This document shows positions 20,254 through 23,175 of a stretch of 37,276 nucleotides of DNA, piece after piece. The notes below the pieces were generated by a model. It made no database searches. It was not told the origin of the DNA and saw only the letters and a list, made by a program, of their open reading frames with translations. Made by a program: the position numbers and the translations under genes. Position 1 is the stretch's first letter. Every line of letters starts with the position of its first letter. Origin of the DNA: Nitrososphaerota archaeon (GTDB lineage Archaea > Thermoproteota > Nitrososphaeria > Nitrososphaerales > Nitrosopumilaceae); NCBI GenBank assembly GCA_021325615.1, contig JAJPGU010000022.1, positions 1 to 37,276 on the forward strand. The letters are read 5' to 3'.

Positions 20254-20907
20254 TTGATCGTCGACCTCAACCTGAAGGGAAATCTTGTAATTGTTGTGGG
20301 GGGTGGCAATGAGGGTCTGAAGAAGGTAAACGCACTTTTGACCCAGGACTGCAGAATCCTCCTAATCTCAGACTCGACAAACAGGCAGATAGAAAAGTAC
20401 GTCAAACAGAAAAAGATTGATTTCAAGAAGATGCGCCTTGTAAACGCCGACTTTGTAAAAAAATACAAACCGTTTGCGGTCCTTGCAACAACGGATGACC
20501 GGAATCTGAACAGGAAGATTGTCGAGCAGGCAAAAAAGATGCGGTGCTATGCATACGCGGCCGACGACCCAGAGGTAAGCGACTTTGCATTCGGGTCGGT
20601 CATAAACATACAGGATACCGTCCAGATAGCTGTTTCCACCGGGGGAAGGAGCCCTGCCATGGCAAGAAGGCTGCGGATGCAGGCAGAGAAGGTTTTCAAG
20701 AAGCTCATAAAGAAAGAGGACATCTACCAGATAAGGCTGCAGGATTTTGCAAGGCATGCCGCGAAGGAAAAACTTGCCACCTTCCCGGAACGCAAGAAGT
20801 TCCTATACCGGGTCATGAATGACAATCGTATCAAACAATTAATAGCTCACGGAAATTTAAAAAAGGCACAGAAACAGGTGATCGAGATGTTGGGTGATCT
20901 CAAATAA
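20254..20907 (+). CDS. Precorrin-2 dehydrogenase / sirohydrochlorin ferrochelatase-like (Met8/CysG N-domain type)
   Basis: Oxidises precorrin-2 to sirohydrochlorin with NAD+, and in some members also inserts iron. The 217-residue protein opens with 'VDLNLKGNLVIVVGGGNEGLKKVNALL' (in two blocks), a Rossmann NAD-binding start, and has 'PFAVLATTDDRNLNRKIVEQ', 'SDFAFGSVINIQDTVQIAVS' and 'TGGRSPAMARRLR', the signature of the family. Start is TTG at 20254, set by the TATA box. It consumes the product of cobA (3155-3898) and supplies the divergent siroheme decarboxylase. Its TAA stop at 20905-20907 overlaps the proposed ATA start of hemA. Confidence 0.92.
   Translation: MIVDLNLKGNLVIVVGGGNEGLKKVNALLTQDCRILLISDSTNRQIEKYVKQKKIDFKKMRLVNADFVKKYKPFAVLATTDDRNLNRKIVEQAKKMRCYAYAADDPEVSDFAFGSVINIQDTVQIAVSTGGRSPAMARRLRMQAEKVFKKLIKKEDIYQIRLQDFARHAAKEKLATFPERKKFLYRVMNDNRIKQLIAHGNLKKAQKQVIEMLGDLK
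20893..20898 (+). promoter_or_regulatory. GGTGAT ribosome-binding site for hemA
   Basis: GGTGAT is fully complementary to the conserved ATCACC near the 3' end of archaeal 16S rRNA. It sits 5 bases before the ATA at 20904. It lies inside the coding end of the upstream gene, so it could be chance, but the spacing is ideal and helps decide the hemA start. Confidence 0.5.
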
Positions 20908-22160
20908 CAGGCGAAGTAATCAACGCTAGGGTTACTTTTAGAAAGGCGCCAATCCACATGCTTGAAAGGTTTACCTTTAGGGATATTGATTCTGCCTACC
21001 AGTCTTTCCTCAAACATTCTGGCCTCCAAGAATGTGTGCTGCTGCAGACATGTAACCGAGTGGAACTTTTTGGTTTTGGAGATACGTCAGTTCTTGAAAG
21101 GATAAAAAAGACATGGGCTTCGGTATCAGGTCTCGAAGAAAATGCCTTCAAGGAGAACCTGGAAATAAGCCAGGGTGCAGAGGCCTTCCAGCATCTGCTC
21201 AAACTCACCTCCGGGCTTGACTCGCTTGTAATAGGCGAGGAGCAGATACTGGGACAGGTTAAGGAGTCCATTAGTGCAGCCCGACAGATGCGCGCCTCGG
21301 GGGCGACGCTTAACACGCTATTTGACAAGGCAATCCGCGTGGGAACAAGGGTAAGGCAGGCAACGGGAATCAGCAAGGGAAGCATATCAATCGGCTCAAT
21401 GGCGGTAAAGCTTGCGGAGGAAAACATCGACGATCTAAAGTCAAAAAAAATACTGCTTATCGGGACGGGCGAGGCGGCGAGCCTGGTCGCAAAATCCCTC
21501 AAAAAGCGAGGAATAGATTTTGATGTAACCAGCAGAACGTTTGAACGTTCAAAGTCGTTTGCAGAGACAGTAGGTGGAACCCCAGTGAAGTTTGAGGGTG
21601 CAATTGCAGACTTCAAGTCCATGGATGTGCTTTTTGTGGCTACCGTTGCCCCATATTTCTTGGTGACCTATGATAGGGTGAAGGAGGCCATGGAATCCCG
21701 TAAAAACGGCATGATGATAATGGATCTCTCAAACCCCAGGACTGTTGATGAGAAGGTTTCAACGATAAAGAAGATAAAGATGATGAACCTGGACCAAATT
21801 GCCGAAATGGTGGACAAAAACATGCGCACCAGGATGGGGGTTGTCTCGTCGGCGGAGAAGATAATTAACGAGGAGCTTCCAGTAATGGAAGCGGCTATGA
21901 AAAGGCTAGAGGTAGAACCAATTGTGAAGAATGTCTTCAAGGAGATAGATCAGGCCCGCGTTAAGGAATTAAAAAAAGCGTTGCAGATGCTTGGTGAAAA
22001 AGACGAGCAGAGGATTAGAATCATCGACCAGCTCACGCAAGCGATAGTCGAGGACATTATATCCGTACCGATGAACAATCTTCGGAAGGCGTCAGAGCAG
22101 GGCGACTCGGAAATGCTCAAGACGGCGACAAAGCTCTTTGATTACAAGATAAAAGAGTAA
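20904..22160 (+). CDS. hemA: Glutamyl-tRNA reductase, probably starting at ATA
   Basis: Reduces glutamyl-tRNA(Glu) to glutamate-1-semialdehyde, the first step of the C5 route. Motifs: 'LLQTCNRVELFGFGD' with the nucleophilic Cys, 'LTSGLDSLVIGEEQILGQVK', 'GSISIGSMAVKLAEEN', NADPH site 'ILLIGTGEAASLVAKSL', 'MIMDLSNPRTVDEKV', and a C-terminal dimerisation helix. The first ATG (20958) would cut off the conserved first strand, 'INARVTFRKAPIH', which is encoded just upstream. No ATG, GTG or TTG lies between the in-frame stop (20895) and 20958. The ATA at 20904 overlaps the preceding TAA, follows GGTGAT, and makes the catalytic residue Cys50, the canonical number. Protein length 418. Confidence 0.9.
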   Translation: MTGEVINARVTFRKAPIHMLERFTFRDIDSAYQSFLKHSGLQECVLLQTCNRVELFGFGDTSVLERIKKTWASVSGLEENAFKENLEISQGAEAFQHLLKLTSGLDSLVIGEEQILGQVKESISAARQMRASGATLNTLFDKAIRVGTRVRQATGISKGSISIGSMAVKLAEENIDDLKSKKILLIGTGEAASLVAKSLKKRGIDFDVTSRTFERSKSFAETVGGTPVKFEGAIADFKSMDVLFVATVAPYFLVTYDRVKEAMESRKNGMMIMDLSNPRTVDEKVSTIKKIKMMNLDQIAEMVDKNMRTRMGVVSSAEKIINEELPVMEAAMKRLEVEPIVKNVFKEIDQARVKELKKALQMLGEKDEQRIRIIDQLTQAIVEDIISVPMNNLRKASEQGDSEMLKTATKLFDYKIKE

Positions 22161-22194: not shown

Positions 22195-23175
22195 ATGTCC
22201 TTCCCTAACGTCCGTCTTCGTAGACTGCGTCAGAGCAGTAAGATTCGAGAACTGTTGGAGGAGGTAAGGGTCTCACCAAAGGATCTGGTGTGCCCGATAT
22301 TTGTTCAGGAGGACCTCAAGTCGAAACTTGCAGGTGGCTCCATGCCGGGTTTTGAGAGGCTGCCTCTAAGCGGCGTGACGGACGAGGTAAATTCGATCAT
22401 CGACCTCGGTATCCCGGCAATAATGGTATTTGGAATTCCGTCCCACAAGGATGACAAGGGGACCTCTGCATTTTCCGATGACGGCGTGGTACAAAAGGCA
22501 ATTTCTGAAATTAGGAAGGGCGTGGGAAACCGCGTTGCCATAATGTCAGATGTCTGCCTCTGCCAGTACACCACCTCTGGACACTGCGGTCTTGTGAATG
22601 GAAACAAGATTGACAACGATTCGAGCCTAGAGGTGTTGGCCAAGACTGCGGTGAGCCAGGCTCGCGCAGGTGCCGACGTCGTATCCCCCTCTGCCATGAT
22701 GGACGGGCAGGTTAGGGCGATAAGAACCGCGCTTGATGATGCAGGTTTTACGGATGTAGCCATAATGTCACATTCGGCAAAGCACAGATCGTCCCTTTAT
22801 TCTCCCTTCAAAGACATGGCACACTCTGCACCTCAGTTTGGGGACAGGAAGACATACCAACTGCCATACACCAATCCCAAAGAAGCAATGCGGGAGGTGG
22901 AGACCGACATAGCTGAGGGCGTCGATGTCGTCATGATCAAGCCTGCGCTTGCTTACCTCGACCTTATAGCTATGACGCGGGAAAGATTCAACGTCCCTAT
23001 AGCAGCATACAGCGTCTCCGGTGAATACGCCATGGTAAAGGCGGCAGCAATGCAGGGCTGGCTAGACGAGAAAGAGGTAACGCTCGAAATACTTACCGCC
23101 ATAAAGAGGGCCGGGGCTGACATGATAGTAACATATTTCTCGAAGATTGCCGCAAAGGCACTTGGCGAAAAATGA
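22195..23175 (+). CDS. hemB: 5-Aminolevulinate dehydratase (porphobilinogen synthase)
   Basis: Condenses two 5-aminolevulinates to porphobilinogen. 326 residues with 'RLRRLRQSSKIRELLEEVRV', 'CPIFVQE', 'DVCLCQYTTSGHCGLV' (three Cys, the zinc-binding form), 'SAKHRSSLYSPFKDMAHSAP' with active Lys196, 'YQLPYTNPKEAMREVETDI' and 'VDVVMIKPALAYLDLI' with Schiff-base Lys249. The ATG at 22195 is 34 bases after hemA; a TATA-like 'gttatatt' at 22163-22170 could give it an extra leaderless transcript. The stop overlaps the start of the next small gene. Confidence 0.96.
   Translation: MSFPNVRLRRLRQSSKIRELLEEVRVSPKDLVCPIFVQEDLKSKLAGGSMPGFERLPLSGVTDEVNSIIDLGIPAIMVFGIPSHKDDKGTSAFSDDGVVQKAISEIRKGVGNRVAIMSDVCLCQYTTSGHCGLVNGNKIDNDSSLEVLAKTAVSQARAGADVVSPSAMMDGQVRAIRTALDDAGFTDVAIMSHSAKHRSSLYSPFKDMAHSAPQFGDRKTYQLPYTNPKEAMREVETDIAEGVDVVMIKPALAYLDLIAMTRERFNVPIAAYSVSGEYAMVKAAAMQGWLDEKEVTLEILTAIKRAGADMIVTYFSKIAAKALGEK

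Follow-up and report, generated by a model that had tools for sequence, protein, structure and literature searches.

Where does translation of hemA begin when its reading frame offers no ATG, GTG or TTG ahead of the first conserved strand of the enzyme? The question arises in the window analysed here, a 37,276-nt stretch that corresponds to contig C31 of a 1.83-Mb Candidatus Nitrosotalea genome assembled in 32 contigs, where hemA, encoding glutamyl-tRNA reductase, is flanked by a sirC-like gene on its 5' side and by hemB on its 3' side (Table 1). An earlier note on this DNA had pointed out that no standard start lies between the in-frame TGA at 20895 and the ATG at 20958, and had placed the start at an ATA that overlaps the sirC TAA and follows a GGTGAT at 5-nt spacing. 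According to that note, the catalytic residue would be Cys50 from the ATA and Cys32 from the ATG, and a start at the ATG would remove a strand of the catalytic domain. We compared the locus with those of 36 congeners, including Candidatus Nitrosotalea devanaterra and N. bavarica, and the aligned start-codon counts were taken from 35 species. The lack of a standard start was borne out base for base and both cysteine numbers hold, with the catalytic Cys codon at 21051 in a TCNR motif, expected at about residue 48-50, that aligns with the QTxNRVE segment of the Methanopyrus kandleri enzyme (1gpj).

Table 1. Features of the sirC/hemA/hemB region, in positions of the window
Feature	Position	Strand	Remarks
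sirC-like gene, precorrin-2 dehydrogenase / CysG N-terminal domain	20254..20907	+	TIGR01470 109.8 bits (cut-off 62.3); putative start TTG 20254
Shine-Dalgarno sequence GGTGATC	20893..20899	+	7-nt complement to 16S 3' end; GGTGAT (20893-20898) ends 5 nt 5' of ATA
In-frame TGA closing the hemA frame upstream	20895..20897	+	Stop in 33/35 relatives, TGG in 2/35
Proposed hemA start codon ATA	20904..20906	+	Aligned codon in 35 species: CTG 19, ATG 12, TTG 2, ATA 2
hemA, glutamyl-tRNA reductase, 418 aa	20904..22160	+	TIGR01035 338.4 bits (cut-off 209.55), full-length
sirC stop TAA	20905..20907	+	Shares two bases with the proposed hemA start codon (ATAA)
HemA codons 2-18 (TGEVINARVTFRKAPIH)	20907..20957	+	Lost if annotated from 20958; codons 7-18 conserved; aligns to first strand of 1gpj
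First in-frame ATG, internal Met	20958..20960	+	Thr in L014, Ala in L025
hemB, porphobilinogen synthase, 3' neighbour	22195..23175	+	NF006762 447.3 bits (cut-off 297)

The aligned sequences give a clear indication that the hemA frame is translated 5' of 20958. Across the 35 species, pairwise comparison of codons 7-18 (NARVTFRKxPIH) gives 100 differences at first, 66 at second and 2589 at third codon positions, and 10 of their 12 residues are invariant, whereas the next 12 codons give 983, 380 and 2721, which represents a weaker protein-level constraint. The score against PF05201 rises from 131.1 to 141.7 when the first 18 codons are included, a gain of about 10 bits. The extension matches the first strand of the M. 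kandleri enzyme, in an alignment that runs from residue 5 of the ATA-start protein, so that the segment lost with a start at 20958 is indeed the strand that had been predicted. Moreover, the Met encoded at 20958 is replaced by Thr in L014, by Ala in L025 and by Val in Nitrosopumilus relatives, and is therefore an internal residue. In L014, no ATG, GTG or TTG is found from the in-frame stop to 11 codons past the catalytic Cys, and a HemA retaining this residue therefore cannot begin at a standard codon there; in L025, the first such codon lies only 14 codons before the Cys.

The earlier note had suggested aligning relatives to see whether the ATA is conserved or is ATG in them. The aligned codon is CTG in 19 of the 35 species, ATG in 12, TTG in two and ATA in two, the window being one of the latter, and 21 species have none of ATG, GTG and TTG at the site. 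ATA is not the family norm, CTG being the commonest codon there in the genus, and the majority of outgroups carry ATG or GTG in the aligned position or close to it. Throughout the genus, the codon at this site shares bases with the sirC stop (NTGA, ATAA or ATAG), which extends to all these species the overlap first noticed in the window. The states seen are ATGA, CTGA, TTGA, ATAA and ATAG, with the sirC stop kept in each of them; since bases 2 and 3 of the hemA codon have to be TG or TA for this stop to exist, the limited choice of NTG or ATA is in part imposed by sirC and does not represent independent evidence. A GTGA overlap, and with it a GTG start, was not seen in the 35 species, though GTG would be expected to be a better start. 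An in-frame stop lies two codons ahead of the site in 33 of the 35 species, and a stop directly precedes it in three, while codon 2 encodes Thr in 33 of the 35, which suits removal of the initiator Met.

On a hemA tree of 48 rows, outgroups included, the start-codon state changes at least 11 times and the site remains constant. ATA arises separately in the window and in L022/G025, and a third case is found in the separate group L054/L059/L081, where it lies one codon closer to the Cys and likewise overlaps the sirC stop as ATAA. In the sister genome L016 the site reads CTG, two base changes away from ATA, and the placement of the window's ATA among CTG and TTG relatives means that the non-standard start would predate it. 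Taken across the 35 Nitrosotalea species, this comparison agrees with the proposed start at ATA 20904 instead of ATG 20958, and its predicted location at 20904 is strongly supported. L061 (1-7222) and L065 (1-17547) carry an additional ATG two codons 5' of an ATA overlapping the sirC stop; their Shine-Dalgarno (SD) sequence abuts the ATG but is normally spaced from the ATA, and either codon may be the hemA start in them.

A search for 16S rRNA in the window's own genome gave no match, and the anti-SD was taken from the near relative N. devanaterra, whose 16S rRNA 3' end is GGATCACCTCCTTA. This sequence makes GGTGATC a true anti-SD complement, in keeping with the complementarity to the archaeal 16S 3' end that had been proposed for GGTGAT. 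The pairing energy of the 18 nt 5' of the hemA site with the 16S 3' end is -13.2 kcal/mol in the window, and all species with CTG, TTG or ATA fall between -8.3 and -13.8 kcal/mol; a value of -13 kcal/mol or better is attained by only 0.13% of control 18-mers drawn from hemA itself. In ATG species the range is -3.5 to -13.8 kcal/mol, the value of -3.5 being confined to three sister species. A strong SD compensating for a weak start codon fits this contrast, which is one among related species and uncorrected for their shared ancestry. In those three sister species (L026, L028 and L031), the SD is gone, AGATAATC having replaced AGGTGATC, a loss that is consistent with a relaxed need for it when the start is ATG. 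RNAalifold found no conserved RNA structure at the sirC/hemA junction (z +0.9), a result that speaks against any hairpin, mini-intron or frameshift stimulator there.

Several other explanations of the locus have to be weighed against a start at 20904. The ATG at 20958 is the first standard start, the likely choice of gene finders, and an ATG is present there in 33 of the 35 species. However, translation from this codon, with the upstream conservation caused otherwise, is very unlikely, given the protein-level constraint on the codons directly 5' of it, the Thr, Ala and Val that replace its Met, the deletion of the strand aligned with 1gpj, and the 12 congeners with ATG at the upstream site. 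We regard as equally improbable a start 5' of 20958 at a different near-cognate codon, such as the ATC at 20919: codon -44 is ATC, ATT or ATA in 33 of the 35 species, but its SD spacing, of 20 nt, is wrong, it is GTA in two species, and it is ATG in no relative, compared with 12 at 20904. A Shine-Dalgarno-like sequence immediately 5' of a site can promote frameshifting there, as it does in bacterial prfB. With such a sequence lying just 5' of the overlap where the sirC and hemA frames meet, HemA might have no start of its own and be produced by a -1 frameshift close to the sirC stop, as an extension of SirC. This seems a shade less probable again, as inspection of the aligned junctions revealed no slippery heptamer common to them, no junction structure is conserved (z +0.9), codons -51 and -50 vary freely in the hemA frame, and 12 species have ATG at the hemA site.

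The window comes from a 32-contig assembly and was judged here from the assembled sequence alone, which leaves room for a sequencing or assembly error that hides a standard start. Still less weight is given to this possibility, since the CTG of the sister L016 is two changes from ATA and equally non-standard, ATA is independently present in L022/G025 and in L054/L059/L081, and the CTG pattern across the genus would persist in any case. The least probable explanation, to the point of being almost negligible, is a short mRNA intron linking hemA to an upstream ATG. It would have a counterpart in carB, which in the same genomes contains a 19-21-nt insert compatible with an archaeal intron; however, no conserved helix is found at the sirC/hemA junction, and the relatives with ATG at the site require no splicing.

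The carB case is an observation in its own right. This gene, encoding the carbamoyl-phosphate synthase large subunit, carries a short insert behind codon 25 (GEAGE) in almost every congener that has the locus. The insert measures 20 nt in the complete N. devanaterra genome (G002) and in G031 and about 19-21 nt in others, and it differs in frame or contains an in-frame TAA. The loci are G000:C8:62273-62652 (in the window's own genome, outside the window), L122 (G002:C1:751706-751801) and L221 (G031:C24:911313-911405). Removing the insert restores GEFDYSGS, and in G002 and G031 it fits a bulge-helix-bulge-like archaeal intron (GGCG-AG^A-GTCAC-CAA-GTGAC-CGTC-AA^T). The insert is a candidate spliced intron, with bypassing as the alternative.

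Returning to hemA, we consider it highly probable that the gene is translated from the codon overlapping the sirC stop, AUA here and CUG in most congeners, most likely by termination-reinitiation. What is conserved in the aligned sequences is the sirC/hemA overlap and, with exceptions, the SD. Under this mechanism, the ribosome terminating sirC at UAA would remain on the mRNA and be held over the hemA start by GGUGAUC, a strong SD some 5 nt 5' of it; there Met-tRNAi would reinitiate on the overlapping near-cognate AUA (or CUG in its kin). With the ribosome pre-positioned and held by the SD, a smaller contribution would be required from codon-anticodon pairing. Coupling to sirC, tolerance of AUA through reinitiation and the SD, and a HemA yield below that of SirC are inferred alongside this mechanism, and the weak start might limit tetrapyrrole flux, as the earlier note had suggested. 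The expected N terminus is Met-Thr-Gly-Glu-Val-Ile-Asn-Ala-Arg, whose Met would probably be cleaved before Thr. The locus has two of the hallmarks of termination-reinitiation, namely an overlapping stop and start and an SD before the downstream start (the latter being usual, not obligatory), together with two of those of a near-cognate start, namely upstream conservation at the protein level and a standard start in the same position in some relatives.

Initiation at AUU is found in E. coli infC, as part of autoregulation by IF3. hemA shows no sign of such a loop and in addition differs from infC in its archaeal initiation of the aIF1/aIF2 type and in a codon that switches repeatedly within the genus; in both infC and bacterial CUG initiation (PMC11497404), the likeness lies in a start other than AUG, GUG or UUG, an SD and an essential gene. 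In E. coli, CUG initiation is about 0.86% as efficient as AUG, and CUG accounts for 0.024% of bacterial starts (quoted in PMC11497404); HemA would therefore be required in small amounts, or initiation would be more tolerant in this group. Experiments have demonstrated termination-reinitiation at overlapping gene pairs (Huber et al. 2019, PMC6728339), in Haloferax volcanii as well as in E. coli. Those pairs share with sirC/hemA the -4 overlap, the SD within the end of the upstream gene and the functional relation of the two genes, but they overlap as ATGA or TGATG, whereas the proposed hemA start is AUA in the window and CUG in the majority of the genus. The consulted part of a review (PMC7531240) gives AUG, GUG and UUG as the start codons of archaeal mRNAs, with CUG, AUU and AUA not among them; compared with the initiation described in that part, Nitrosotalea hemA is alike in its SD-led initiation and ordinary 16S anti-SD and differs in its CUG or AUA. 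Likewise, the enzyme is the same, ordinary one as that of M. kandleri, and only its start codon is unusual. No precedent for archaeal CUG, AUU or AUA starts was found in the open-licence papers searched, and one may exist elsewhere. Both the enzyme and the overlap belong to kinds already known; what those papers do not describe is an essential archaeal gene with CUG starts, and AUA variants, across a genus.

Further near-cognate candidates were sought by comparing 860 orthologous frames between the N. devanaterra genome and 0.98 Mb of G031 (C24). NTGA overlaps with an upstream orthologue use ATG, TTG, GTG and CTG 42, 14, 5 and 2 times in N. devanaterra and 39, 13, 7 and 1 times in G031. Of the roughly 60 such overlaps in each genome, the one at hemA alone has a clear CTG start, as an ATG directly precedes the CTG in the second N. 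devanaterra case. ATA codons at other NTAA overlaps in the two genomes were not counted as starts, mostly having an ATG within a few codons. A BLAST-extension scan for sequence conserved 5' of the first standard start yielded a noisy set of 226 candidates, reduced by a third-position-bias filter to 19 rows containing about six genes of interest. A ubiB-like kinase gene (G002:C1:1735185-1736579, minus strand; G031:C24:367144-368523), present in 35 of 37 congeners, has an apparent ATT start behind AGGAGG in both genomes. In a ppx/gppA-like gene (G002:C1:442402-443940; G031:C24:313578 onward), conserved coding begins in both at a CTG that forms CTGA with the TGA stop of a 10-codon ORF lying upstream, with the same geometry as sirC/hemA. 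A tusA-like gene has an apparent near-cognate ATT start after AGGTG, and a gmd-like gene apparently starts at ATA in G002 and at ATT in G031 (tusA- and gmd-like loci: G002:C1:679909-680172; G031:C24:828634 onward; G031:C24:99647 onward). These candidate starts, seen in two genomes, are leads only. More broadly, and tentatively, Nitrosotalea might tolerate CUG, AUA and AUU where a strong SD or an overlapping stop is present, with a small set of genes (hemA and the ubiB-, ppx-, tusA- and gmd-like ones) using near-cognate starts missed by annotation and the weak hemA start keeping HemA below SirC at the entry to tetrapyrrole synthesis; we hold this wider proposal to be possible but rather doubtful.

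If the proposed start is correct, an archaeal genus of acid-soil ammonia oxidisers begins an essential gene, that of the first enzyme of heme and vitamin B12 synthesis, mostly with CUG and in some members with AUA, which would enlarge the archaeal start-codon repertoire. As the proposed start is non-canonical and lies at the end of sirC behind a strong SD, gene finders probably truncate the N terminus, and the annotated HemA proteins of the group would probably be missing 18 residues of the catalytic domain. It would also mean that a start codon can drift where a stop codon and an SD pin the initiation site, and the natural series of AUG, UUG, CUG and AUA at one conserved site bears on whether reinitiation loosens start-codon selection.
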